Source: Halopseudomonas xinjiangensis (GTDB lineage: Bacteria > Pseudomonadota > Gammaproteobacteria > Pseudomonadales > Pseudomonadaceae). Taken from it: DNA of 64,000 nucleotides. Position numbers and translations under genes: made by a program. Location of the stretch: contig NZ_LT629736.1 in the NCBI RefSeq assembly GCF_900104945.1, positions 1,426,001-1,490,000 of the forward strand, in the 5' to 3' direction. Positions 45,116 through 63,842 of the stretch are shown here, piece after piece (position 1 is the stretch's first letter; each line of letters opens with the position of its first letter). The notes beneath the pieces were generated by a model that was not told the origin of the DNA, made no database searches, and saw only the letters and a list, made by a program, of their open reading frames with translations.

Positions 45116-45159
45116 CCCCCCCATAAGGGGGGTTCAGGGTTCAACCGGAGCGGCATAGT
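45116..45159 (+). promoter_or_regulatory. Putative LAL-regulator box and promoter of DUF1302 gene
   Basis: CCCCCC-ATAA-GGGGGG (45117-45132, with one extra C before it), then exactly 21 nt, then CATAGT (45154-45159) as -10. The box centre falls near -41.5 relative to the predicted start (about 45166). The same layout precedes the PQQ dehydrogenase gene. Confidence 0.6.
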
Positions 45160-45244
45160 GTCGAGTGGGGTGCGAAAGGCCGTGACAGACGGCGCGCAGA
45201 CATCGCCCCGGTGACAACAAGAAAAAGCCCGACGCGAGGGAATC

Positions 45245-47041
45245 ATGAGCAGAATAACTACAAAAAATCTGGTCTGGGGCCTCAAGCCTCTGACCGTCGC
45301 GGTCGCTCTGGCCGCAGCAATGCCGGCTCACGCGGTACGCTTCGATATTGGTGAGGTGCAAGGTCAGTTCGATTCGCAGCTTTCCATTGGCTCGGCCTGG
45401 AGCACTGCCGAGCGCGATGAGGATCTCATCTGGATCAACAACGGGGGCCGGGCCAATGCGGCCAACTCCGACGACGGCCGCCTGAACTACGAAAAAGGCG
45501 ATGTCATCTCGACCATTTTCAAGGGCACACACGACCTCTCGCTGCAGTACGGTGACACCGGCGTCTTCGTGCGTGGCAAGTACTGGTACGACTTCGAGAT
45601 GAAGGACGGTAGCCAGGATCTGTACGACATCGACGACAGCGGCCGCCGGGATCTGGCCAAGGCCTCCGGGGCCGAACTGCTCGACGCCTTCATCTATCAC
45701 AATTACGCCATCGGCAGCATGCCCGGCTCGGTGCGTGTCGGCCGCCAGGTCGTAAGCTGGGGCGAAAGCACCTTCATCCAGAACAGCATCAACAGCATCA
45801 ACCCGGTCGATGTTGCGGCGTTTCGCCGTCCCGGCGCGGAAATCAAGGAAGGATTGATTCCGGTAAACATGCTTTACCTGTCCCAGAGCCTGACCGAAAA
45901 CCTCGGGATGGAGCTGTTCTATCAGCTCGAGTGGGATCCGCTGGTACTCGATAACTGCGGCACCTTCTTTTCGTTCACCGACTCGGTAGCCAAGGGTTGC
46001 AACTACACGGTAGTCGACGGCACCCAGCTCAGCGGTGGGCCGATGGTCTACGTCCCGCGTCTGGAGAATCGCGAGCCGACCGACAGCGGCCAGTTTGGCG
46101 CCGCCTTTCGCTGGTTCGTGCCGGCGCTGAACGACACCGAGTTCGGCCTGTATGCGATGAACTTCCATAGCCGGACCCCGTTTTACAGCAACGTCGCGGG
46201 AACCGGGGCACCAACCGGAGCGGCCTACAATTCGCATCTCGATGTCGTCGAGGTACCGCTCGATGCGGGTTATTACATCGACTACCCCGAGGACATCCGT
46301 CTGTATGGCCTGAGCTTCCAGACCAACCTGGGCGGCATGTCGGTATCCGGCGAAGTCAGCTACCGACCCAACCAGCCGCTGCAGATCAGCACCAACGATA
46401 CCGTGGCCGCTGCACTGGGTGGCGGCGCCAACCCATTCACGCCAGTCAACCTCAGCGGCTACTACCCCGGCCTGGTTCCAGGCGTTCCGGCCCCGGCTGG
46501 CTACGATATCCGTGGTTACAAGCGGATGCCGGTCACCCAGGCCCAGGTAACGGCCATCCATTTCATGGATAACGTGCTCGGTGCCGACCGGCTCTCGCTC
46601 GTAGGAGAAGTGGGCTACAACCATATTGGCGGGCTGAAGAGCGGCCCCGACGAGCTACGTTTTGGCCGTGATTCGATCTTCGGTTCGGGAGAACTGGCTG
46701 TGCCTGGCCTGTGTGAAACAGCGGTCAATACGGCGCAACCGCAATACTGTTCGGACGAGGGCTTCTATACCCAGCATTCGTGGGGCTATCGACTGGTCGC
46801 CGCGCTGGATTACAGCGGCTTCGCCGGTGTTGCGCTGACGCCGAGCCTGGCGTTTTCCCATGACGTGGAAGGCTACGGCCAGAACTTCAACGAAGGCGCC
46901 AAGGCCGCCAGCGTCGGCCTCAACGCCTTGTACAACAATAAATACAACGCCAGCCTGAGCTACACGAACTACTTCGGTGGCGACTTCAATACTCTGACCG
47001 ATCGCGACTTCGTTGCCGTCAGCGTCGGCGTGAATTTCTGA
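45245..47041 (+). CDS. DUF1302 outer-membrane protein
   Basis: 598 residues with a signal peptide (LTVAVALAAAMPAHA). It starts with VRFDIGEVQGQFDSQLSIGSAWSTAERDE, the DUF1302 opening; the rest is beta-strand-rich with alternating polar/nonpolar runs and ends in a porin-like aromatic C-terminus (RDFVAVSVGVNF). Predicted outer-membrane beta-barrel. Members are regularly paired with DUF1329 genes and often found near lipid, steroid or alcohol catabolism; function unproven. GAGGG precedes the ATG. First gene of a two-gene operon. Confidence 0.88.
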   Translation: MSRITTKNLVWGLKPLTVAVALAAAMPAHAVRFDIGEVQGQFDSQLSIGSAWSTAERDEDLIWINNGGRANAANSDDGRLNYEKGDVISTIFKGTHDLSLQYGDTGVFVRGKYWYDFEMKDGSQDLYDIDDSGRRDLAKASGAELLDAFIYHNYAIGSMPGSVRVGRQVVSWGESTFIQNSINSINPVDVAAFRRPGAEIKEGLIPVNMLYLSQSLTENLGMELFYQLEWDPLVLDNCGTFFSFTDSVAKGCNYTVVDGTQLSGGPMVYVPRLENREPTDSGQFGAAFRWFVPALNDTEFGLYAMNFHSRTPFYSNVAGTGAPTGAAYNSHLDVVEVPLDAGYYIDYPEDIRLYGLSFQTNLGGMSVSGEVSYRPNQPLQISTNDTVAAALGGGANPFTPVNLSGYYPGLVPGVPAPAGYDIRGYKRMPVTQAQVTAIHFMDNVLGADRLSLVGEVGYNHIGGLKSGPDELRFGRDSIFGSGELAVPGLCETAVNTAQPQYCSDEGFYTQHSWGYRLVAALDYSGFAGVALTPSLAFSHDVEGYGQNFNEGAKAASVGLNALYNNKYNASLSYTNYFGGDFNTLTDRDFVAVSVGVNF

Positions 47042-47057
47042 AGCACGGAGAACAACA

Positions 47058-48431
47058 ATGAAATCAATCGCACAAGCTAGTCGCCGCACCTTGGCCCTGC
47101 TCGCCCTGAGCACACTCGCCGTCAGCGTCCACGCAGCGGTGTCGCAGGAAGAAGCGTCCAGGCTCGGCAACGAACTGACCCCGCTGGGCGCCGAGCGCGC
47201 CGGCAATGCCGACGGCACGATTCCCGAATGGACCGGTGGCATGCCGACCGATGCAGCCGCAGTCGACAAAGACGGGTTCTACTCGGAGCCCTTCCCTGAC
47301 GACAAGATCCTGTTCACCATCACGGCGCAAAACGCCGAGCAGTACAAGGACAAGTTGAGCCCGGGCCATATGGCGATGTTCACCCGCTACCCGGAAACCT
47401 ACCGGATGCACGTCTACGAGACCCGCCGGACCAACACTGTTCCGACCGAGATCGAAGAGGCGGTCGCGCGCAACGCCGTGAATACCAGGCTGGTCGAAGG
47501 CGGAAACGGGCTGGAGAACTTCGATAGCGCCTACCCTTTCCCTATTCCGCAGAGCGGCGTCGAGGTGGTCTGGAACCATATCACCCGTTACCGTGGTGGT
47601 AGCCTCAAGCGAACCATCGCCCAGGCAACCCCGCAAGCGAACGGCTCAAACACCATGGTCATCTTCCAGGACGAATTCACCTTCGCCACCGCCCTCACCG
47701 ACTATGGCCCGAAGATTTCCGACAACCTGATGTTCTATTTCACCCAGCGGGTGCTCTCGCCTTCGCGTCTGGCCGGCGATGTGCTGCTGGTGCATGAAAA
47801 CATCAACCAGGTGAAGGAGCCGCGCCTGGCGTGGATTTACAACGCTGGCCAGCGCCGTGTGCGTCGCGCGCCGCAGGTCGCCTATGACGGTCCGGCTTTC
47901 GGCGCCGATGGCACCCGCACCGCTGACAACTACGATCTATACAACGGCGCACCGGATCGCTATGACTGGAAACTGGTTGGCAAGCGCGAGATGTACATCC
48001 CGTACAACAACTACAAGATCGCCTCGCGTGACGTCGAATACGAAGACATCATCCAGGCCGGACACATCAACCAGGATCTTGTGCGCTACGAGTTGCACCG
48101 CGTATGGGAGGTCGAAGCTAACCTGCGGGACGGCCAGCGTCACGTCTACGCCAAGCGTCACTTCTTCATCGACGAAGACAACTGGCAGGCCGCGGCGATC
48201 GACCATTACGACGGCCGCGGCGGTCTCTGGCGGGTCGCTGAAGCAATCGCCCAGCAGCGCTTCCAGGTGCAAGTGCCCGGTTATGCCATCGAGACACTGT
48301 ATGACCTGCAAAACGGCCGGTACGTGGCGCTGGGCATGACCAACGAAGAACGTAACAACTACGATCTGGATTTCAAGGCATCGTCTGCCGATTACACCCC
48401 CAACGCGTTGCGCGCCTCGGGTATTCGCTAG
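47058..48431 (+). CDS. DUF1329 periplasmic/outer-membrane-associated protein
   Basis: 457 residues with signal peptide (TLALLALSTLAVSVHAA). Family signature VSQEEASRLGNELTPLGAERAGNADGTIPEWTGG, and YDGPAFGADGTRTADNYDLYNGAPDRYDWKLVGKREMYIPYNNYKIAS. DUF1329 proteins are predicted to have a LolA/LolB-like half-barrel, so a role in moving a hydrophobic molecule across the periplasm with the DUF1302 barrel is a reasonable inference. Lies 16 bp behind the DUF1302 gene. Confidence 0.88.
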   Translation: MKSIAQASRRTLALLALSTLAVSVHAAVSQEEASRLGNELTPLGAERAGNADGTIPEWTGGMPTDAAAVDKDGFYSEPFPDDKILFTITAQNAEQYKDKLSPGHMAMFTRYPETYRMHVYETRRTNTVPTEIEEAVARNAVNTRLVEGGNGLENFDSAYPFPIPQSGVEVVWNHITRYRGGSLKRTIAQATPQANGSNTMVIFQDEFTFATALTDYGPKISDNLMFYFTQRVLSPSRLAGDVLLVHENINQVKEPRLAWIYNAGQRRVRRAPQVAYDGPAFGADGTRTADNYDLYNGAPDRYDWKLVGKREMYIPYNNYKIASRDVEYEDIIQAGHINQDLVRYELHRVWEVEANLRDGQRHVYAKRHFFIDEDNWQAAAIDHYDGRGGLWRVAEAIAQQRFQVQVPGYAIETLYDLQNGRYVALGMTNEERNNYDLDFKASSADYTPNALRASGIR

Positions 48432-48438
48432 CCCTCCG

Positions 48439-48460
48439 CTCCCCGGTATCAACCGGGGAG
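48439..48460. repeat. Perfect hairpin after the DUF1329 gene
   Basis: CTCCCCGGT / ACCGGGGAG, 9-bp stem, loop ATCA. No T tract of its own; it precedes the real terminator. Confidence 0.55.
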
Positions 48461-48486
48461 TACCAACTCCTTCGTTGCTGAGCCTT

Positions 48487-48521
48487 GCGCTTCCTCGTGA
48501 CTGCCGGGGAAGCGCCTTTTT
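48487..48521 (+). terminator. Rho-independent terminator of the DUF1302-DUF1329 operon
   Basis: GCGCTTCC / GGAAGCGC 8-bp stem, 13-base loop, then CTTTTT. It abuts the convergent regulator's stop codon. Confidence 0.82.
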
Positions 48522-51202
48522 CACCCTCCCTGGCGCAACATCACCGCCGCCTGTGCGCGGTTATCCACCTTGAGTTTGGCGAAGATACTTTTCATGTGGG
48601 ATTTGATGGTTTCCGGCGCCACGTTCAGATCGCGGGCAATCTGCTTGTTCGACTTGCCTTCGGCAACCAACTGCATCACCTGTCTCTCTTTGACGGTCAA
48701 ATCCAGCAGTGCAGCGGCCTGCCGTTCATCCTGCTGAATACCTACGCCGGCATCGGCGCGGATCTGCCGGATTCGTTGCCAGACAGAAGGCACAATCGAC
48801 TCCTGACAGCGGGCATCCTGATCTCCGAGTGGACAGTCGAATACGATCGCCAACGCGCCGCTCTGCTCGACGCTCATCAGTACCTGTTCAAGCAAAGCCG
48901 GATCGTTGCCAGGGTGCTGATGCAAATCTTGCACGAGGCCCAGCGCCAGTCCCAGCTCGGCGTGCCAGAGTCGCAGCTCGCGATCGTGCAACCTGAGCGT
49001 CAAAGCCTGCGCCTTGTCTATCAGAGCTTCGTCGAGATCATCCCGATGCATGGCCAGCCAAAGCGCGGACAAGGTCGCGTATACGTCGAATTCCCAGGTC
49101 GGCGCGTCGGTGTGTCGCGTCGATAATTCAGCGAGTCCACTGACGCAAGCCGCCGCCTCGCGAAATTTGCCGTCCAGCAAATTGATCCGGGATCTCTCCA
49201 TCAGCACCCTGGCGCGCAATCTGTCCCAATCGTGGATGTTGGCGAGTCCTTCCAACTGTTCCAGCAGGCGCCGGGCACGTTGATGCTGGCCCTGATGCCA
49301 GGCGAGCCTGGCACTGGTGCAATAGGCCGCCGCGGTGCAGTCGAGGAATCCGGCCATGTCGACCAGGTCAATGCCCTGGGCGAGACAGGCCTGCGCCGCG
49401 GTCCGATCGCCGAGCAGATATTGCAGCTGGGCTATCACTGCCTGAGGCAATGCCACCAATGCCGGGTTGGGCCGCTCCGGCATGTCGGCGAAACGAGCCG
49501 ACACGCGTTGCAGGAATTCGGTCAGATCGTTAATGCCGTCCTGCAGCCGTCCCTGTATCGATTGCGCCAGAGCGTGCAGCGATTGGCGGTAGCAATCGTG
49601 AAACAGCATGCCCGCCGGCATGCCCGGTCCGCATAGCGTCGGTGGAACGGTGTAGAACGCATCCCAGCGACCGGCGTGGAAATGACTGCAGCTGATCAGG
49701 TTGAGCAACACATTCCGGACCCAGGGACGTAACGTTGCCGATCTGTAGCAGGTTTCCGCTAGCGGGCCGGAAATGTGATTCTGGTCTGCCAGGCCGGCCA
49801 GCATGGCCTCCAGCGAGCGCATCTCCCACTCGATCCAGACACCTTCCTCGCCCATCGAGGTGATGTCCGAGGTTATCTCGGCCATCATCGCCCGCGCGCT
49901 GTCAGGCTCCAGCGCCACGCCTAACGCCCAGGCCCTGGCTATCTTGAGCGCCAACGGTGCACCCGAGGAATGCGTTTGCCAGCGTTTTTCCAGCGAAACC
50001 AGTGCGGCGAAATCGCCCTGCTCCAGTAGCTGCATTGCACAACCTTCGATCCAGCCGCGGACCGCATCGAGATGCCCGCCCTCCATTCCCAGCCGGATAG
50101 CATCGAGCCAGCGCTCGTGTCGGGCGCACCAGTCTGCCGCGGTCAACAGAAACCGGTTCGCGTCTTCGCCATTGCGCCGCAGATATCGGACCTTGAGATA
50201 TTCGCGGAACATCGGATGCAGACAGTACCAGGCGCGGCTGTCATCCAAGGATTGGATGAACACCGATTGATCCAGCAGCGCATCGATCAGGCCAAAGGCG
50301 GCGTGCTCACCGAGCACATTACGTAGCATCGCATCGCTGAACTTGTCGAGCATGCCCAACGGCAAAACCGCACGGCGTTGGCCCGCGGGAAGGTATTGCA
50401 GCGCCTCGTCGAACACGTGGCGGATACAACGCATGCTCGCCCCGTGACTCGATCCGGTCGATGCCGGGGCTTGCAGACAGGCACGCAGCCCGGTGACCCA
50501 ACCCTCGGTGTACCGCTGCAACTCAGCCAGTTCGAGGCTCGACTCGGCGCCTGCCTTACGCAGCAGATCGCGGGTTTCATCAAGCTCGAAACGCAGCTCG
50601 ATGGCGCCCAGTTGCAGCAGGTCATCGAGATAGAGATTCTGCTTGATTGCGGTCGGGATAGCGCTTCTGGAACACAGCACCAGATGAGTCGAACCGGGAG
50701 CACGTTGCAAGAGCCTGCTCAGCGCGCCGACGAGGACTTCATCATCTACCCGATGACAGTCGTCGATGAACAGAACCAGAGGGCGTGCAGCCTGGCTGAG
50801 GGTGTTGATCAGCTCTATGATCGACCTGGGCTGTGCATGCTGCCCTTCCACACCCAGAGGATCGAAGGCCTGCGCCACCGCGGCAAACAGGTACCGATGG
50901 ATGTCCTCGACATGCTGGTCCTCGTCATCCAGCGAGAGCCAGCCAACCGCGTGCCCGCGAGCCGCAAGATCGTCGCACCAGATGGTTGCCAGCGTGGTCT
51001 TGCCGTATCCTGCCGGGCCTTCCAGCACCGTCAGACGGTGCTCGGCGACGCGTGCATGCAGGTCTTCGAGTCTTGGCCGGGGAAGGATATTGCGGCCGCG
51101 CCGCGGTGGGATAAGCTTGGTTTTCAGCAGTGGCGGACAATCGTCACGAGGCTCGGCTCGGAGAGGACGATCGGGAATCAGTGCGCCTGTTCTCATGCTC
51201 AT
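48521..51202 (-). CDS. MalT/LAL-type LuxR-family transcriptional activator
   Basis: 893 residues. N-terminal ATP-binding STAND domain with Walker A LEGPAGYGKTTLATIW (about 58-72) and PLVLFIDDCHRVDDEVLVGAL (Walker B), a TPR-like middle region, and a C-terminal LuxR helix-turn-helix LTVKERQVMQLVAEGKSNKQIARDLNVAPETIKSHMKSIF. Such regulators (MalT, AlkS, AcoK) need ATP and a small inducer. P. aeruginosa has, as far as I recall, a similar regulator next to a DUF1302/DUF1329 pair. ATG 51202 (MSMRTGALIPDRP) was preferred to 51283 because GGAAAG lies just before it. Probable controller of the surrounding genes. Confidence 0.9.
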   Translation of the reverse strand: MSMRTGALIPDRPLRAEPRDDCPPLLKTKLIPPRRGRNILPRPRLEDLHARVAEHRLTVLEGPAGYGKTTLATIWCDDLAARGHAVGWLSLDDEDQHVEDIHRYLFAAVAQAFDPLGVEGQHAQPRSIIELINTLSQAARPLVLFIDDCHRVDDEVLVGALSRLLQRAPGSTHLVLCSRSAIPTAIKQNLYLDDLLQLGAIELRFELDETRDLLRKAGAESSLELAELQRYTEGWVTGLRACLQAPASTGSSHGASMRCIRHVFDEALQYLPAGQRRAVLPLGMLDKFSDAMLRNVLGEHAAFGLIDALLDQSVFIQSLDDSRAWYCLHPMFREYLKVRYLRRNGEDANRFLLTAADWCARHERWLDAIRLGMEGGHLDAVRGWIEGCAMQLLEQGDFAALVSLEKRWQTHSSGAPLALKIARAWALGVALEPDSARAMMAEITSDITSMGEEGVWIEWEMRSLEAMLAGLADQNHISGPLAETCYRSATLRPWVRNVLLNLISCSHFHAGRWDAFYTVPPTLCGPGMPAGMLFHDCYRQSLHALAQSIQGRLQDGINDLTEFLQRVSARFADMPERPNPALVALPQAVIAQLQYLLGDRTAAQACLAQGIDLVDMAGFLDCTAAAYCTSARLAWHQGQHQRARRLLEQLEGLANIHDWDRLRARVLMERSRINLLDGKFREAAACVSGLAELSTRHTDAPTWEFDVYATLSALWLAMHRDDLDEALIDKAQALTLRLHDRELRLWHAELGLALGLVQDLHQHPGNDPALLEQVLMSVEQSGALAIVFDCPLGDQDARCQESIVPSVWQRIRQIRADAGVGIQQDERQAAALLDLTVKERQVMQLVAEGKSNKQIARDLNVAPETIKSHMKSIFAKLKVDNRAQAAVMLRQGG

Positions 51203-51395
51203 CGAGTCTTTCCATGCTGGTCGGGCTGATGGATTACCAGCCTCTTTTTGTTGTATGTGCCTGATCGGCACTTGCCCCAGCATAGCAGTGAACAGCGACG
51301 AGGGGAGCGTCTGGCGAGCCAGCGTCCCCCATCATAAAACGCGTTGATTTAGAGCAAATACTCAGCGCTATGGACCTTTCGGTCCGAGTCGGACG

Positions 51396-53486
51396 CTATT
51401 GTTGGCTTCCAGCTGCCTTCATCGCCTCGGTCCAGGTCTGATATTCCCGATGCCGGACGTAGGTCAGGATCTGCCTGGCCTGCTGTTCGCTAAGGCTGTC
51501 ACCAAAGGCGGCCATGCCTTTCGACTGAAATGCCCCGTGCAGAACAATAGCCTCCCACGCCTGACGCACCGCATCCGGTGAATGGCGCAGATCCGGCAAC
51601 ACGCCTCCACCGACGACCCCTGTGCCGTGACATACGGCGCAATAAGCAGCATACAGATCCGAACCTGCCTTGATATCCTCTTCCGATGCCACCACCGGCT
51701 CAGGCGTGCGTTGGCTCTGCGGCACATCTCCAAGCGTCGGCAGGCTTGCCTTGCCATCGAGCTTGAAGACCAGCATACGACTAACATTGCGCACACCAGT
51801 GGCCACTACCGCATCACCACCGAACAGTGCAGCGGAACCGCCCCAACCAGCCATCAGCGCTACGTACTGTTCGCCTTCGTGGCGATAGGTCATAGGCCCG
51901 GCGATAACGCCGGTTTGCGCGTCGAACGACCACAACTCCTTTCCCGCATCGGCGCTGTAGGCCTTGAATTTGCCCGCAGCGGTGCCCTGAAAAACGAGAT
52001 TGCCGGCCGTTGCCAAGGTTCCGCCATTCCAGTGATGCGGATATTCGACGCGCCAGGCAGCTTCTTGCTTGGCCGGATCCCAGGCGATCAGCGCACCGGA
52101 TGTGTAGTCGCGCGGCAACTCGGTGATTTCAGATGAGCCCGAACCGGTATTGAAACCATGCTTGGGTACGTAACTCTTGCCCTCGTTACTGTAGATCCCA
52201 GGCACTTCCTGATACGGGATATAGACCAGCTTCGTCAGCGGGCTGTATGACATCGGGTGCCAGTTGTGCGCCCCGAATGGGCTTGGCCACATTGTCACCG
52301 CTTCTTTCTCGTAGCGGGCGCCGGGGACTTCCACAGGTCGGCCGGTGGCCATGTCGATGCGCTCGGCCCAGGTTACCTTGCCGAACTTCTCCGCCGAGAT
52401 GAGTGCGCCGCTTTCGCGGTCCAGCACATAGAAAAAGCCGTTCTTTGGCGCCTGCATCAACACCTTTCGCGGCTTGCCGTCGACCTCCAGCTCCGCCAAG
52501 GTGATTTGCTGGGTGGCGGTAAAATCCCAGGTGTCGCCCGGATTGACCTGGTAGTACCAGGCCAGCCGACCGGTATCAGGCTTGATTGCCAGGATCGAGG
52601 ACAGGAACAGGTTGTCGCCGCCGCCTGGGCTGCGGATTTCCCGGTTCCAGGGCGAACCGTTGCCGGTTCCCACATAGAGCAGGTCCAGCTCCGGATCGTA
52701 AGCCATCGCGTCCCAGGCGGTACCGCCGCCACCAAGCGACCAGTCGGTATCCTCGCTCCAGGTTTTCGCCGCTTCGGTCAGCTCTGGATGCTCCACAGGC
52801 TGCGATGGGTCCGCCGGCACGGTGTAGAACCGCCAGCGCATCTCGCCTGTTTCCGCATCGTAGGCTGAAAAGTAGCCGCGCACACCGAGCTCAGCGCCGC
52901 CGTTACCGATCATCACCATGCCTTTGACGATACGTGGCGCCGCGGTGATGGTGTATGGCTTGCTGTTGTCGGTTGTCTGCTTGGTCCATACCGGCTCACC
53001 GGTTTTGGCATCGAGCGCAATGAGGCGGCCATCCAGCGTGCCTACGTAAACCTTACCCTTCCATAGCGCCACGCCGCGGTTGACCGCGTCGCAACAGGCG
53101 TGGCGTCCCTTGGCCTTGTTCACCTCGGGATCGAAGCTCCATAAGATTTTTCCCGAATCGGCGTCGACCGCCATGACGCGGCTCCAAGACAACGAGGTGT
53201 ACAGAACGCCGTCGTGATAAAGCGGCGTCGCTTCCAGCCCGCGGTTGTTGTCCAGGTCGATAGACCAGGCGAGTCCGAGCTTCGCCACGCTGTCCTGGTT
53301 GATTTCTTTCAGCGGACTGAAGCGTTGTTCAGCGCGGGTTCGACCATAGCTCAGCCATTCACCGTCGCTCTGCTCGCGCAGCGCCTGTTCATTGACTGGT
53401 GCGGCCAGGGCAGTCAGGGAAAGACCACCAAACGCCCACAGCAGAGCCAGGGTAGAACGCGGGTTGGGTATTATTATTGTCATCAT
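51396..53486 (-). CDS. Quinohemoprotein alcohol dehydrogenase (PQQ and heme c)
   Basis: 696 residues. Signal peptide (STLALLWAFGGLSLTALAA), then an eight-bladed PQQ propeller with the vicinal disulfide GRHACCDAVNRG (about 128), WAW-type docking repeats such as GTLDGRLIALDAKTGEPVW, and calcium/PQQ-site segments (WDAMAYDPELDLLYVGTGNGSPW; PGDTWDF with the catalytic Asp). A C-terminal cytochrome c domain has CAVCHGTGVVGG (about 616) and distal Met in FQSKGMAAFGDSL. This is the type II (soluble) quinohemoprotein class that oxidises primary/secondary alcohols in the periplasm. PQQ synthesis genes are not in the window. Confidence 0.94.
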   Translation of the reverse strand: MMTIIIPNPRSTLALLWAFGGLSLTALAAPVNEQALREQSDGEWLSYGRTRAEQRFSPLKEINQDSVAKLGLAWSIDLDNNRGLEATPLYHDGVLYTSLSWSRVMAVDADSGKILWSFDPEVNKAKGRHACCDAVNRGVALWKGKVYVGTLDGRLIALDAKTGEPVWTKQTTDNSKPYTITAAPRIVKGMVMIGNGGAELGVRGYFSAYDAETGEMRWRFYTVPADPSQPVEHPELTEAAKTWSEDTDWSLGGGGTAWDAMAYDPELDLLYVGTGNGSPWNREIRSPGGGDNLFLSSILAIKPDTGRLAWYYQVNPGDTWDFTATQQITLAELEVDGKPRKVLMQAPKNGFFYVLDRESGALISAEKFGKVTWAERIDMATGRPVEVPGARYEKEAVTMWPSPFGAHNWHPMSYSPLTKLVYIPYQEVPGIYSNEGKSYVPKHGFNTGSGSSEITELPRDYTSGALIAWDPAKQEAAWRVEYPHHWNGGTLATAGNLVFQGTAAGKFKAYSADAGKELWSFDAQTGVIAGPMTYRHEGEQYVALMAGWGGSAALFGGDAVVATGVRNVSRMLVFKLDGKASLPTLGDVPQSQRTPEPVVASEEDIKAGSDLYAAYCAVCHGTGVVGGGVLPDLRHSPDAVRQAWEAIVLHGAFQSKGMAAFGDSLSEQQARQILTYVRHREYQTWTEAMKAAGSQQ

Positions 53487-53564
53487 GGTTTCCCTTGAGC
53501 TTGTACGTCTATGGCGGCCGCTTCCCGTTCAGAGGTGCGAGCCGGCTCACCGGCATGCTTCGAA

Positions 53565-53606
53565 TGTATGCGGGTGGACGCTGAGGTTTCACCCCCCTGA
53601 TGGGGG
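53565..53606 (-). promoter_or_regulatory. Putative LAL-regulator box and promoter of the PQQ dehydrogenase
   Basis: On the minus strand: CCCCC-ATCA-GGGGGG (53606-53592), exactly 21 nt, CATACA (53570-53565). Predicted leader about 72 nt. Matches the layout upstream of the DUF1302 gene. Confidence 0.6.
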
Positions 53607-59158: not shown

Positions 59159-60841
59159 ATGAACAACAACAAAAGCGAAATGACCAAGCCGCGATTTTTT
59201 CTTACAGCCATTTCTACAGCCGTACTTGCAGTCTCGTTGACCGGCTGCCTGGGTGGCGACAGCGACAACGATACCCCTCCGCCTGCAGCCGCCGACCCGC
59301 TGGCCGTCGAGACCCAGCAGGGTACCGTTGCGGGCATCGAACTCAACAACATGCGCGTCTTCCGGGGCATTCCCTACGGGGCGGAGCCAGAGCGATTCGC
59401 GGCCCCGGAGCTCCCGGCAGAGCGGACGGAGCGCCTCGTTCTCAGCGAGGAATTCGCCACATCGTGCCCGCAGCCTGACGCCACATTCGGTGACTACAGC
59501 GACAACGAAGACTGCCTTTACCTGAATGTCTACGCCCCACCGGAGCCGGGTGATTACCCGGTGATGGTATGGATTCATGGCGGCTCCCTGACGACCGGGT
59601 CCGGCGGCAGCAGCTACGAACCGGCACGTCTGGTCGAACAGGGCATCGTCGTAGTCACTATCAACTATCGTCTGGGCGCCCTGGGCTTCCTGCCGCACTC
59701 CTCTCTCGCCGATGAAAACGGTTCCTACGGCAACTACGGCCTGATGGATCAGCAGCTCGCTCTGAAATGGGTTGAAGAAAACATCTCCGGGTTCGGCGGC
59801 AATCCCGACAACGTGACCATTTTCGGCGAGTCAGCTGGCGGACACAGCGTTATGAGCCACCTGGCATCGCCCGGCTCGGCAGGCCTTTTCGATAAAGCCA
59901 TCGTCCAGAGTGGTTCCTACAGCCCGACACAGCTCAGCCAGCCCGCGGGCGAAGCGGTATTCGGCCAACCTTTGGTAGCCGCAACCGGTTGCGACCAGAG
60001 CCCGGACGTCGCGACCTGTCTGCGCGAATTGCCGGTCGATGCCATCCTCGACGCGCAGGCTGGCAGCTACCTGCCAGTAACCGGCGGCCAAGTACTGCCT
60101 GAATCGATTGATGAGCGTCTATCCAGCGGAACCTTCAATCAGGTGCCAGTGATGATCGGCAGCAACCTGCACGAAGGACGGCTGTTCGTAGGTATCGAAA
60201 TTCTGCAAACCCAGACCGGGGTGACAGCCGCCAACTATCAGGACAAGGTAGACGCCCTGCTGGCAAGCGATCCGCGCGAGTACGATCGTCAGACCGTAGC
60301 GGACGAGTACTACCAGCGCATCGTTGCGCTTGAGAACATTCAACCGGACGATCCCGGCCGCTATGCCCGTGCGCTCTCGGCAATCAACACCGACTGGCGC
60401 TTCGCCTGTTCCAACGTCAATCAGCTGCAACAGATCAATGCAGCAGGACAGGATGCGTACGGTTACTGGTTCACCGATGAGAATGCTCCGAGCATCCTTC
60501 CATACACGGTTCCGGGTTTACCCTGGGGCGCGGCACATGCGTTCGAGATCCAGTACGTGCTGGCTGACGAATCCACTTTCGTCGAGCGTGGCGCTACCGA
60601 ATCCCAGGTAGCCCTGTCTGACGCCATGGTTGGCTACTGGGCAAACTTCGCCAAGTTCGGCGACCCGAACAGCACCGATGGTGCTTCCGGCAACGTGGAA
60701 TGGAGTGCGGTGGGTGAGTCGGGAACAATCCTCGATCTCGACCCCGCTCAGCTAGGTCCCGTGCCCGCAACCAGTTACGCTGAATATCACAACTGCGATC
60801 TCTGGGCCGATCCGGAAACGCAGGCACCGCTAACGCCGTAA
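59159..60841 (+). CDS. Type-B carboxylesterase lipoprotein (first of pair)
   Basis: 560 residues. Lipoprotein signal ending TAVLAVSLTGC (lipobox LTGC) followed by Leu-Gly, no Asp at +2, predicting the outer membrane. Alpha/beta-hydrolase of the carboxylesterase type-B family: FRGIPYGAEP, EDCLYLNVYAP, oxyanion-hole VMVWIHGGSL, nucleophile FGESAGGHSVMSHL (about 226), and late VPGLPWGAAHAFEIQYVL containing the catalytic His. Substrate unknown; surface location suggests bulky or extracellular esters. Has its own terminator. Confidence 0.92.
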   Translation: MNNNKSEMTKPRFFLTAISTAVLAVSLTGCLGGDSDNDTPPPAAADPLAVETQQGTVAGIELNNMRVFRGIPYGAEPERFAAPELPAERTERLVLSEEFATSCPQPDATFGDYSDNEDCLYLNVYAPPEPGDYPVMVWIHGGSLTTGSGGSSYEPARLVEQGIVVVTINYRLGALGFLPHSSLADENGSYGNYGLMDQQLALKWVEENISGFGGNPDNVTIFGESAGGHSVMSHLASPGSAGLFDKAIVQSGSYSPTQLSQPAGEAVFGQPLVAATGCDQSPDVATCLRELPVDAILDAQAGSYLPVTGGQVLPESIDERLSSGTFNQVPVMIGSNLHEGRLFVGIEILQTQTGVTAANYQDKVDALLASDPREYDRQTVADEYYQRIVALENIQPDDPGRYARALSAINTDWRFACSNVNQLQQINAAGQDAYGYWFTDENAPSILPYTVPGLPWGAAHAFEIQYVLADESTFVERGATESQVALSDAMVGYWANFAKFGDPNSTDGASGNVEWSAVGESGTILDLDPAQLGPVPATSYAEYHNCDLWADPETQAPLTP

Positions 60842-60850
60842 AGCAATTGG

Positions 60851-60877
60851 CGCGGCCCGCAACGGGCCGCGTCTTTT
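60851..60877 (+). terminator. Rho-independent terminator between the two esterase genes
   Basis: CGCGGCCCG / CGGGCCGCG 9-bp stem, loop CAA, followed by TCTTTTT. Confidence 0.92.
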
Positions 60878-61009
60878 TCGCGTGCTCTCGCCCTACCTGA
60901 CTGAGCCAGTCTGCCAATAAGCTTGCCAGCTCGCCAGCCAACACAGGCTCGTTCGCATCCGCCGAGTTTTTTCTCGAGGCCTTGCAATTCCTGCCGTACC
61001 CAACCATCA

Positions 61010-61049
61010 CCCATTTGGGTTTAGCCAATGCATGGCTGGTTCATTTATG
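61010..61049 (+). promoter_or_regulatory. Candidate degenerate box upstream of second carboxylesterase
   Basis: CCC-ATTT-GGGTTT (61010-61022) has the same GGGTTT right side as the box of the first esterase; 21 nt later comes TTTATG (61044-61049). A weak version of the shared layout. Confidence 0.3.
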
Positions 61050-61092
61050 GTTGCTGAATCAATCCGGATCAGATTGATCTTCCGCCCACGCC

Positions 61093-62781
61093 ATGGACAT
61101 AAAAACAATGAATTTCGATCGTGTTACAAAGCCAACTACCCCGCTGCGCGCCCTAACCGTTGCGCTGCTCGGACTCAGCCTTAGCGCCTGTCTTTCCGGC
61201 GGCGGCAGCTCCAACTCTGCTGCCCCGGCTGCGCCGGCCAACCCGCTGCAAGTCACCACTACCGAGGGTGAAATCCGCGGGATCGAATCTGGCGACATTC
61301 GGATCTTCCGCGGGATTCCCTATGCTGCCCCGCCGGTTGGCGAGCTGCGCTTTGCTCCGACCGAACCAGCGCCAGAACGCGAAGGCGTGCTCGAACTCAG
61401 CGAAGAGTTTGGCGCCATGTGCCCCCAGGTCGATCTGCTCACGCAGCAGGTCCAAGGCTCAGAGGATTGCCTGTTCCTGAACGTTTACGCGCCTGCCGGT
61501 GCTGATGACCTCCCAGTAATGATCTGGATTCACGGTGGGGCCTTCGTCTTCGGCAACGGTGGCGGCGAATATGACCCGACGCGGCTGGTTGCAAAGGACG
61601 TCGTCGTTGTGACGCTGAACTATCGTTTGGGCAATCTCGGCTTTCTCGCGCATCCTTCGCTGGAGTCGGATGGCGGCAATTATGGCCTGATGGATCAGCA
61701 GGAAGCGATGCGCTGGGTCAAGCGCAACATCGCCGCCTTCGGTGGAGATCCAGGTAACGTGACCATCTTTGGCGAATCGGCCGGTGGCCACAGCGTGATG
61801 AGCCATATCGTATCGCCCAGGGCTGAAGACGAAGACCTGTTCCAGCGCGCGATCGTGCAAAGCGGCTCCTACGCTGCCTTCCAGTCGCCCAAAGCGGTTT
61901 CTCAGGCCGGTGGTCTTTCGGTGGCAGACGCGTTAGGTTGCCCGGAGACCGGACCGGTAGCCGAGTGCCTGCGCAGCGCCTCGATCCCTGCGCTGCTCTC
62001 GGCTCAGGGATCTCAGAGCATCCCGACCGTGGATCCGGCAACCGACCTTTTGCCGAAATCGATTCAGCAAGCGCTTGGCGAGAACGACTTCAACACCAAT
62101 CTGGACATCATGATCGGAAGCAACCAGAACGAAGGCACGCTGTTCGTCGCGCTCGACGAGCTGGGCGGCACTTCGCTGGAAGCGCAAGGCGAAGGCGAAT
62201 ATCGAGACCGGGTTGCCGAGTTCTTCGCGCCCTATCAGGCTGCGGCGCCCTTCGACGACCAACAGATCGCCAGCGACTATCTGGGGTTTTATAGCGAAGC
62301 CTCCAGCCCTTTTTCCCAGGCGCTGTCAGCGATCTGGACCGACTTCATGTTTGCCTGTAACAGCGCAGGCCAAGCCGCGACATTCGCGGGCAAAAACATG
62401 AACACGTTCAAGTACTGGTTCCGTGATGAAAATGCTCCGTGGACGCTGGTCCGCCCATCCTTTGCCAGCTTTCCGCTAGGCGCGACGCATGCCGGAGAAA
62501 TCCCTTACGTACTTTATCCTGAAAGCATCATGCGCGACCGTTACGCGGGCAGCCAAGCCGATGTCGATGCATTGGCCGAAACGATGGTGGATTACTGGAC
62601 CAGCTTCGCTCGGAACGGCGATCCCAATACCGCAGATGGCGTAGCGGCGAGCTGGCCGCAGGCGTCGTCGGGTCAGTATATGGTGTTGGACGTACCAGCC
62701 TCCGCCAGCACCAGTGCCATGAACTTCCTCACCTATCACCGTTGCGGATACTGGCAGAACCCGCCGCTTCGCACACAGTGA
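61093..62781 (+). CDS. Type-B carboxylesterase lipoprotein (second of pair)
   Basis: 562 residues, paralogue of the preceding esterase: same blocks FRGIPYAAPPVGELRF, EDCLFLNVYAPAG, VMIWIHGGAF, FGESAGGHSVMSHIVSPRAED (nucleophile Ser about 232), and FPLGATHAGEIPYVL with the catalytic His. Signal LTVALLGLSLSAC gives a lipoprotein with Leu at +2, again for the outer membrane. Neither ATG (61093 or 61108) has a clear Shine-Dalgarno. Strong separate terminators imply independent transcription of the two paralogues. Confidence 0.91.
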   Translation: MDIKTMNFDRVTKPTTPLRALTVALLGLSLSACLSGGGSSNSAAPAAPANPLQVTTTEGEIRGIESGDIRIFRGIPYAAPPVGELRFAPTEPAPEREGVLELSEEFGAMCPQVDLLTQQVQGSEDCLFLNVYAPAGADDLPVMIWIHGGAFVFGNGGGEYDPTRLVAKDVVVVTLNYRLGNLGFLAHPSLESDGGNYGLMDQQEAMRWVKRNIAAFGGDPGNVTIFGESAGGHSVMSHIVSPRAEDEDLFQRAIVQSGSYAAFQSPKAVSQAGGLSVADALGCPETGPVAECLRSASIPALLSAQGSQSIPTVDPATDLLPKSIQQALGENDFNTNLDIMIGSNQNEGTLFVALDELGGTSLEAQGEGEYRDRVAEFFAPYQAAAPFDDQQIASDYLGFYSEASSPFSQALSAIWTDFMFACNSAGQAATFAGKNMNTFKYWFRDENAPWTLVRPSFASFPLGATHAGEIPYVLYPESIMRDRYAGSQADVDALAETMVDYWTSFARNGDPNTADGVAASWPQASSGQYMVLDVPASASTSAMNFLTYHRCGYWQNPPLRTQ

Positions 62782-62787
62782 CGCACT

Positions 62788-62815
62788 GCCGGGCCCGGCG
62801 ACGGGCTCGGCTTTT
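62788..62815 (+). terminator. Rho-independent terminator of second esterase gene
   Basis: GCCGGGCCCG / CGGGCTCGGC stem (one G-T pair), loop GCGA, then TTTT. Confidence 0.85.
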
Positions 62816-62819
62816 CGCG

Positions 62820-63842
62820 CTACTTCTCCTCGGCTACAACCGGCCGCTTTGGCAGCACTGCGAGAAAATTGCTCTGCGCAACTTTCACGGCTACGTCCGC
62901 TTCGAGCGCATCGAGAAACGCATCGAAGCGCGACAGATGCTTGCCTAGATTGTCGAACCGCCCTACCACGTCCGACCCGATCATGAAGCGGTCAGGGTAG
63001 CGTTCGACCAACCGCACCCATTCCGCGTCCGCTTCACCCGCTTCGTCCAGCAAATACGTATCGAGCATGCTCCAGGATAGATCGATGTAGAGGTTGGAGT
63101 AGGTCGCGAGCATTCTATCCAGGGTGTCATGGAGAAACTCCAGGCGTTCCTGGCGACGGTGAATTTCAGCGGATGTACCAGCATGCGCCCAAATGAATCG
63201 AACCTTAGGGTGGGCGCGTAGCGGCTCCTCGATCTCGTGCAGATACAGGGGTTCACGTTCTCGCTTGGAGGTGATGTTGCTATGCACCATGACCGGCATG
63301 TCGAATTCTGCGGCCAGATAATAGACGCGCGTCATGGCTTCGCTGTTGGCGCGCGGCACGTCGCCATGCGTCAGAGCGGTGAGATCGTCATGACGGGTGA
63401 ACACCTCGCCGATCCCCTTCCACAGGCCGGGGAACATCTCGATCGTTCGACGGATGTGCTCATCGGAGTTCTTGTCGTTCGGGTTGAAGCCGGTGAGGAA
63501 AGGATGAAACCGTTCACGTTGCTGCTCCGGTAGATCAAGCAACGCATGGGCAAGAATCGCATCGGTCCCGGTAAACCAGTAGGCGCCTGCATCGTCGCCG
63601 GCGTAATAGCGCGGGCGACGCGGCTCGTTCTCATGCCATTTCTTCGCAACGGCCACGCCTGAAATCATCACGGCATCGATGCGATGCTCATCCATCTGGC
63701 TGAGCAGAGGCAGCATGCCTTCGCTGTTCTGAAAGAAATCGACGTAATGCAGGTGTGCGTCGGTGTAGCGATACTCGCGGGCCTGGAGCGCGCCGGAAGC
63801 GAGCGATAGAACCATTAGCGATACAACGGTGACAGTGCGCAA
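62820..63842 (-). CDS. Exported amidohydrolase-2 family protein
   Basis: 340 residues. A signal peptide (VVSLMVLSLASGALQA) is followed by a metal-dependent TIM-barrel hydrolase (COG2159/amidohydrolase 2): HxH in YTDAHLHYVDFF, MVHSNI, FIWAHAGTSAE and the metal/catalytic Asp in FMIGSDVVG. Most family members are cytosolic decarboxylases or lactonases, so the signal peptide is notable. The start is TTG at 63842, supported by GGAG eight bases upstream; the ATG at 63815 would cut the signal peptide. Convergent with the second esterase. Confidence 0.85.
   Translation of the reverse strand: MRTVTVVSLMVLSLASGALQAREYRYTDAHLHYVDFFQNSEGMLPLLSQMDEHRIDAVMISGVAVAKKWHENEPRRPRYYAGDDAGAYWFTGTDAILAHALLDLPEQQRERFHPFLTGFNPNDKNSDEHIRRTIEMFPGLWKGIGEVFTRHDDLTALTHGDVPRANSEAMTRVYYLAAEFDMPVMVHSNITSKREREPLYLHEIEEPLRAHPKVRFIWAHAGTSAEIHRRQERLEFLHDTLDRMLATYSNLYIDLSWSMLDTYLLDEAGEADAEWVRLVERYPDRFMIGSDVVGRFDNLGKHLSRFDAFLDALEADVAVKVAQSNFLAVLPKRPVVAEEK

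Follow-up and report, generated by a model that had tools for sequence, protein, structure and literature searches.

The closest described parallels to the locus analyzed here come from MalT-type activators. The MalT box is G-rich, and MalT sites are reportedly direct repeats. Once bound to its inducer, MalT multimerizes, after which it occupies its boxes and brings in RNA polymerase (passages of PMC4381067). AlkS of P. putida GPo1, a MalT-family activator in a pseudomonad, activates transcription from an inverted-repeat operator located 5′ of a catabolic promoter, PalkB (passages of PMC8784404). With respect to target genes, PP_0765 and PP_0766 of P. putida belong to the same two families, DUF1302 and DUF1329, that are found at this locus, a likeness at the family level, and the P. 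putida relatives of the DUF1302 and DUF1329 proteins are predicted to be an outer-membrane barrel and a periplasmic protein, respectively (passages of PMC10866462). In the ped cluster, the LuxR-type regulators AgmR and PedR2 control the PQQ alcohol dehydrogenases, and the passages of PMC12997753 on these enzymes name no LAL regulator. Among open-licence papers, we found no literature on the candidate operator described here or on a LAL regulator beside DUF1302.

Two putative promoters flanking a LAL gene share a palindromic box and a spaced −10 element

The window (the whole stretch of DNA analyzed, 64,000 nt from Halopseudomonas xinjiangensis) contains a gene for a LAL regulator between a DUF1302-DUF1329 operon and a gene for a PQQ-dependent alcohol dehydrogenase, with the following features:

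45116-45132, + strand: palindromic box 5′ of the DUF1302 operon, C7-ATAA-G6 (core 14-mer, 45118-45131; seven C, 45116-45122; ATAA, 45123-45126; G, 45127-45132)
45156-45161, + strand: putative −10 element of the DUF1302 promoter, TAGTGT, starting 31.5 nt from the centre of the box
45245-47041, + strand: DUF1302 protein (Pfam PF06980, 579 bits)
47058-48431, + strand: DUF1329 protein, LolA-like (Pfam PF07044, 507 bits; PF17131)
48487-48515, + strand: terminator-like hairpin 3′ of the DUF1302-DUF1329 operon (consensus match only)
48521-51283, − strand: LAL (MalT-like) regulator, 920 aa, between the two operons (Pfam AAA_16 and GerE)
51396-53486, − strand: PQQ-dependent quinohemoprotein alcohol dehydrogenase (Pfam PQQ and cytochrome c)
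53563-53568, − strand: putative −10 element of the PQQ dehydrogenase promoter, TACATT, starting 31.5 nt from the centre of the box
53592-53606, − strand: palindromic box 5′ of the PQQ dehydrogenase gene, C5-ATCA-G6 (core 14-mer, 53593-53606; C5, 53606-53602; ATCA, 53601-53598; G6, 53597-53592)

The first-pass annotation described a layout common to the two genes, comprising box, 21 nt, and CATA, and the sequence bears this out position for position, with CATAGT (45154-45159, + strand) at the DUF1302 gene and CATACA (53570-53565, − strand) at the PQQ dehydrogenase gene; at the DUF1302 box the layout holds, but the run of C comprises seven residues rather than six. A promoter scan listed no −35/−10 pair at either box, as expected of an activator-dependent promoter.

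Among solved structures, 1kv9, a type II quinohemoprotein alcohol dehydrogenase (ADH-IIB of P. putida HK5), is nearest to the PQQ dehydrogenase, with 1077 bits over residues 31-692. Two type-B carboxylesterase genes and an amidohydrolase gene lie near the cluster in the window (59159-63842), with no box before them, and an esterase gene and an amidohydrolase gene lie about 2.5 kb from the PQQ dehydrogenase box in three relatives (L025, L027, and L033, positions 1-2422).

The LAL protein comprises an N-terminal P-loop NTPase domain (AAA_16, 38 bits; PDB MalT 8bob over residues 52-377, E 1e-31) and a C-terminal GerE (LuxR) HTH (residues 862-915 of 920 aa, E 8e-21) that contains TIKSHMK; NTPase domain, GerE HTH, and large size together point to a regulator of the LAL, MalT-type STAND class. 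The match to the MalT equivalog model NCBIfam NF003420 scores 242 bits, below the 537-bit cut-off. In an alignment of HTHs without L027, whose reading is truncated, and L096, whose reading lacks the HTH, KSHMK is present in 20 of 21 readable LAL-subfamily rows and KSYMK in one, whereas distant LALs have KWHL (19/21 readable rows) or RTHL (2/21); the KSHMK stretch presumably is the recognition helix of the GerE-type domain. The LAL protein resembles MalT of Escherichia coli in its NTPase domain, its GerE C-terminus, and a G-rich candidate site, but differs in that the site is one inverted repeat per promoter (32/32), whereas MalT is said to use direct repeats. The parallel with MalT drawn earlier is therefore loose: the MalT-like family stands, but the single inverted repeat is closer to the AlkS operator (passages of PMC8784404), a likeness at the level of operator description, with a different target pathway.

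Box and spacing are conserved in Halopseudomonas

The relatives of the window genome are Halopseudomonas. The LAL gene is present in 16 of 37 genomes of the genus (E at most 1e-100), and the same 16 genomes contain orthologues of both the DUF1302 protein (66% identity or more) and the PQQ dehydrogenase (72% or more). An exact box precedes both units in all 16 LAL-containing genomes (32/32 sites). When the 32 promoters are aligned on the box, 24 have a TAnnnT sequence that begins 31.5 nt from its centre, and the other 8 have one at 32.5 nt. The distance is kept even though the 18 nt interval between box and −10 element is weakly conserved, with a mean pairwise identity of 0.39 and 0.33 in the two promoter sets. 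CATA, which had been proposed as the −10 element, occurs in only 10 of 32 orthologous promoters (9/16 for DUF1302 and 1/16 for PQQ dehydrogenase) versus 32 of 32 for TAnnnT, and the predicted −10 element thus sits 2 nt beyond CATA. Taking the −10 element to span −12 to −7, the box centre would be located near −43.5 (24/32) or −44.5 (8/32), and not at −41.5 as previously suggested. The layout, with a constant box-to-−10 distance of 31.5 or 32.5 nt in 32 of 32 promoters and with no consensus promoter at the boxes, would suit a class-II-like activated promoter.

The position of the box relative to the PQQ dehydrogenase gene varies. An alpha/beta-hydrolase gene (8/8 by Pfam) separates the two in 8 of 16 genomes; the box then lies 884-913 nt from the start of the PQQ dehydrogenase gene and 54-90 nt 5′ of the hydrolase gene, at the head of the unit. 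By position, the box marks the head of the predicted transcript rather than the PQQ dehydrogenase gene. Nor is the box common to all DUF1302 genes: among 112 matched stretches, the 16 cluster stretches have the box, and 94 of the other 96 have no listed box within 10 kb (lists compared by eye; the remaining two, from G018, fell outside the check, the single box of G018 not being in the list).

The box with a spaced −10 element is rare

The C5-N4-G5 pattern CCCCCNNNNGGGGG occurs twice in the window, both occurrences being the boxes described above, versus a mean of 0.08 occurrences in window shuffles (2 reached in 0/100). The whole 3.54 Mb genome contains three exact C5-N4-G5 places, versus one for a reversed control pattern. 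Of the three, the one outside the window, C1:2335213, lies 864 kb off and has a GC-rich core; TAnnnT at the fixed distance is absent from it, and we set it down as background.

Outside the cluster, there are 19 C5-N4-G5 occurrences in the 16 LAL-containing Halopseudomonas genomes (1.2 each) and 29 in the 21 LAL-lacking ones (1.4 each; one overlapping pair counted twice), and the reversed control pattern has 58 over all 37 genomes. The pattern outside the cluster is thus at the background rate in the genus. None of 24 background boxes, a subset comprising those in loci L040-L068 outside the cluster plus L003, has TAnnnT at 31.5 or 32.5 nt on either side. The search of the genome and its relatives that the first-pass annotation had called for thus yields a motif that is not randomly scattered. 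Chance as the cause of the shared boxes is ruled out by the shuffles, the genome and genus counts, and the absence of spaced −10 elements from the background boxes.

The promoter layout co-occurs with a LAL subfamily across Pseudomonadaceae

Within Halopseudomonas, the LAL gene and its candidate targets are gained or lost together, so co-occurrence there cannot alone name the binder. In the family as a whole, 21 of 398 genomes contain a member of the LAL subfamily, with at least 36% identity. A sequence model of 35 promoter rows chosen from 37 references (R1) matches 22 of 398 genomes at E 0.02: all 21 LAL-subfamily genomes and G375 (21/21 versus 1/377; Fisher p 5e-34, which, like the p value below, overstates, closely related genomes not being independent events). 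Outside Halopseudomonas the R1 result is partly circular, with 5 of 35 rows from four of the five non-Halopseudomonas LAL-containing genomes. A second model (R2) was built because R1 held these rows, and comprises 30 Halopseudomonas rows only. At E 0.05, R2 finds its 15 training genomes, G026, and four of the five other LAL-containing genomes, missing G195, versus 2 of 377 LAL-lacking genomes, G375 and, with a weak, partial match, G270 (p 9e-8). Both models left out the two main-cluster promoters of L070 (G026), which are near-identical to those of L022; their E-values are rough, and stricter filters were applied. The R1, R2, and LAL searches are taken to cover the same 398 genomes, given that their counts and handles agree.

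Six LALs of 36-39% identity, one of them a second LAL of Halopseudomonas G026, have in their surroundings (110,882 bp) five exact boxes in four loci, all with a spaced −10 element; the other two loci have one-mismatch boxes with it. No box occurs in the 429,499 bp surrounding 22 more distant LALs, whose identity is at most 29%. In the LAL-lacking genome G375, a one-mismatch box with a spaced −10 element precedes an acyl-CoA dehydrogenase gene (L157 5978-6024). We found no LAL gene in the 12 kb fetched, where there are only short LAL matches, one of them antisense to the acyl-CoA dehydrogenase gene, and none in the genome at E 1e-100. The thiolase-like frame that follows the acyl-CoA dehydrogenase gene changes beyond its initial portion, an arrangement suggestive of a deletion in the operon. 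The G375 box may be a relic, given that the operon looks truncated.

The comparative results support the first-pass proposal that the LAL protein encoded between the two operons controls both transcripts. We assign a probability of roughly 0.85 to the reading that the LAL activator binds the palindrome and drives transcription both of DUF1302-DUF1329 and of the PQQ alcohol dehydrogenase gene.

Proposed mechanism and alternatives

The leading alternative is that the box is bound by a regulator from another locus, such as a GerE-type response regulator akin to AgmR, and that LAL is a mere neighbour. The control of ped-cluster PQQ alcohol dehydrogenases by LuxR-type AgmR and PedR2 (passages of PMC12997753), together with the match between HTH domains of such regulators and the LAL HTH, gives this alternative some appeal, but a widely present response regulator should leave spaced boxes in LAL-lacking genomes, and box and LAL subfamily coincide (21/21 genomes versus 1/377 otherwise) even where the target genes differ. 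The spaced boxes precede differing genes, and LAL is therefore what these loci share. We consider binding by another regulator unlikely.

It is also quite improbable that LAL acts at these boxes as a repressor. Some subfamily loci have the box within the brief stretch that precedes the LAL start codon, and a protein bound there could prevent LAL from being transcribed, but the box of the target promoters is 5′ of a −10 element without a recognizable −35 element, an activator position, and MalT and AlkS are activators (passages of PMC4381067 and PMC8784404). Least probable of all is that the box is an RNA or DNA structure (a C-run/G-run hairpin in a leader or terminator) rather than a protein site: C5-N4-G5 is able to form a hairpin, and one relative has a similar sequence resembling a terminator (L034 4734, by eye), but the box is 5′ of a conserved −10 element at a fixed distance (32/32) and hence would not be transcribed from that promoter, and the scan listed no terminator at either box.

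By analogy with MalT and AlkS, we propose that LAL (48521-51283) would be a STAND-type activator that depends on an inducer and, through its C-terminal GerE domains, binds the CCCCC-N4-GGGGG palindrome as a dimer, just 5′ of a degenerate −35 region and with the center of the palindrome 31.5-32.5 nt from the TAnnnT −10 element. Bound LAL would touch RNA polymerase from upstream, in a class-II-like position, replacing the missing −35 element, and would switch on DUF1302-DUF1329 and the PQQ alcohol dehydrogenase together, under one signal; in half of the relatives, the PQQ dehydrogenase unit so controlled would carry the extra alpha/beta-hydrolase gene. DUF1302-DUF1329 probably is an envelope pair for a hydrophobic substrate. 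The best reading of the sequence comparisons is that the regulon is small and local, joining this envelope pair to a PQQ alcohol dehydrogenase.

Candidate targets elsewhere

At the loci of 36-39% identity, genes of several kinds follow the spaced box: an acyl-CoA dehydrogenase gene that is divergent from LAL in 4 loci, a DUF1329 gene in 3, and, in one case each, a DUF1302 gene, a DUF1254/1214 gene, and a second LAL gene. The last case, in G195 (L077 15037-17609), hints at a regulator cascade. In L156 (G188), an exact box precedes a DUF1254/1214 gene, with no TAnnnT at the fixed distance.

In the window genome, a box with one mismatch and a TAGTAT at the 31.5 nt distance (C1:1905483-1905531; L122 6484-6532) is located 83 nt 5′ of an operon for a flavin monooxygenase (FMO-like) and an esterase (hormone-sensitive-lipase-like). 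The box is also present in the nearest relative, G001 (L123 6865-6910), with differing spacers, and hence in 2 of 11 LAL-containing genomes with a readable upstream region (a twelfth read N); it is absent from four LAL-lacking rows from three genomes, two of these rows having three-mismatch look-alikes only. R1 matches the two sites with E 0.011 and 0.45, and R2 does not find the site either at E 0.05 or at E 1. From these comparisons, the monooxygenase-esterase operon is only a probable third regulon member. A wide regulon is unsupported: at E 1, R1 adds seven weak sites in the genus, the best with E 0.011.

We give even odds to a broader reading, in which the KSHMK LAL subfamily of Pseudomonadaceae would own a private operator (C5-N4-G5 with TAnnnT at 31.5-32.5 nt) that has been rewired to serve a variety of catabolic modules (PQQ alcohol dehydrogenase, acyl-CoA dehydrogenase operons, DUF1254/1214, and, in two genomes, probably flavin monooxygenase and lipase-like esterase), usually with DUF1302 and/or DUF1329, and in which the regulon would mark an import-and-oxidize system for hydrophobic alcohols or esters. 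A precise, testable candidate operator is now assigned to an uncharacterized regulator subfamily, and DUF1302 and DUF1329, families of unknown function, would be tied to alcohol oxidation under one control. The operator with spaced −10 element is rare enough in these genomes for the regulon to be readable from sequence, and, given the inducer, box and regulator together could be used for sensing.

The putative promoter of the LAL gene

Two further features lie 5′ of the LAL gene:

51331-51363, − strand: putative LAL promoter, GAGTATTTGCTCTAA (51349-51363) and TATGAT (51331-51336); layout in 11 of 15 loci, window included
51322-51334, strand not assigned: single half-site GCGTCCCCCATCA adjoining the putative −10 element of the LAL gene (sequence read)

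The AlkS operator is also found 5′ of alkS itself (passages of PMC8784404), whereas the window has only the half-site, and self-activation is unsupported by R2. A pattern drawn from the half-site itself, with up to three mismatches, yields 58 matches versus 73 expected and thus no enrichment; R2 does not find the half-site, and it is not conserved in all relatives. We reject the half-site as a full box, and an autoregulatory contact there is a weak possibility. In five of the six loci of 36-39% identity, an exact or one-mismatch box is located just before LAL. In four of these five loci, the box lies between LAL and a divergent acyl-CoA dehydrogenase gene, and this gene, rather than LAL, could be what the box serves.

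In the window, the scan lists no coding-strand terminator from the PQQ dehydrogenase gene to the LAL gene, so a transcript from the predicted PQQ dehydrogenase promoter could possibly read on into the LAL gene. A promoter-like stretch, GAGTA-N2-TACTCTAA followed by TATGAT, is conserved before LAL in the window (one mismatch) and in L021-L034 and L069-L072. The sequence GAGTANNTACTCTAA also has matches in other places, 21 across 15 of the 37 genomes of the genus, with several of them at LAL, and some regulator may therefore act at this stretch of the LAL promoter. Directly 3′ of the LAL TATGAT (51262-51330, − strand), several relatives have a hairpin-capable stretch, with differing sequences; the z values are −3.4 for L034 and −4.2 for L022, and range from −2.0 to 0.1 for the other nine loci, with −0.4 for the window.
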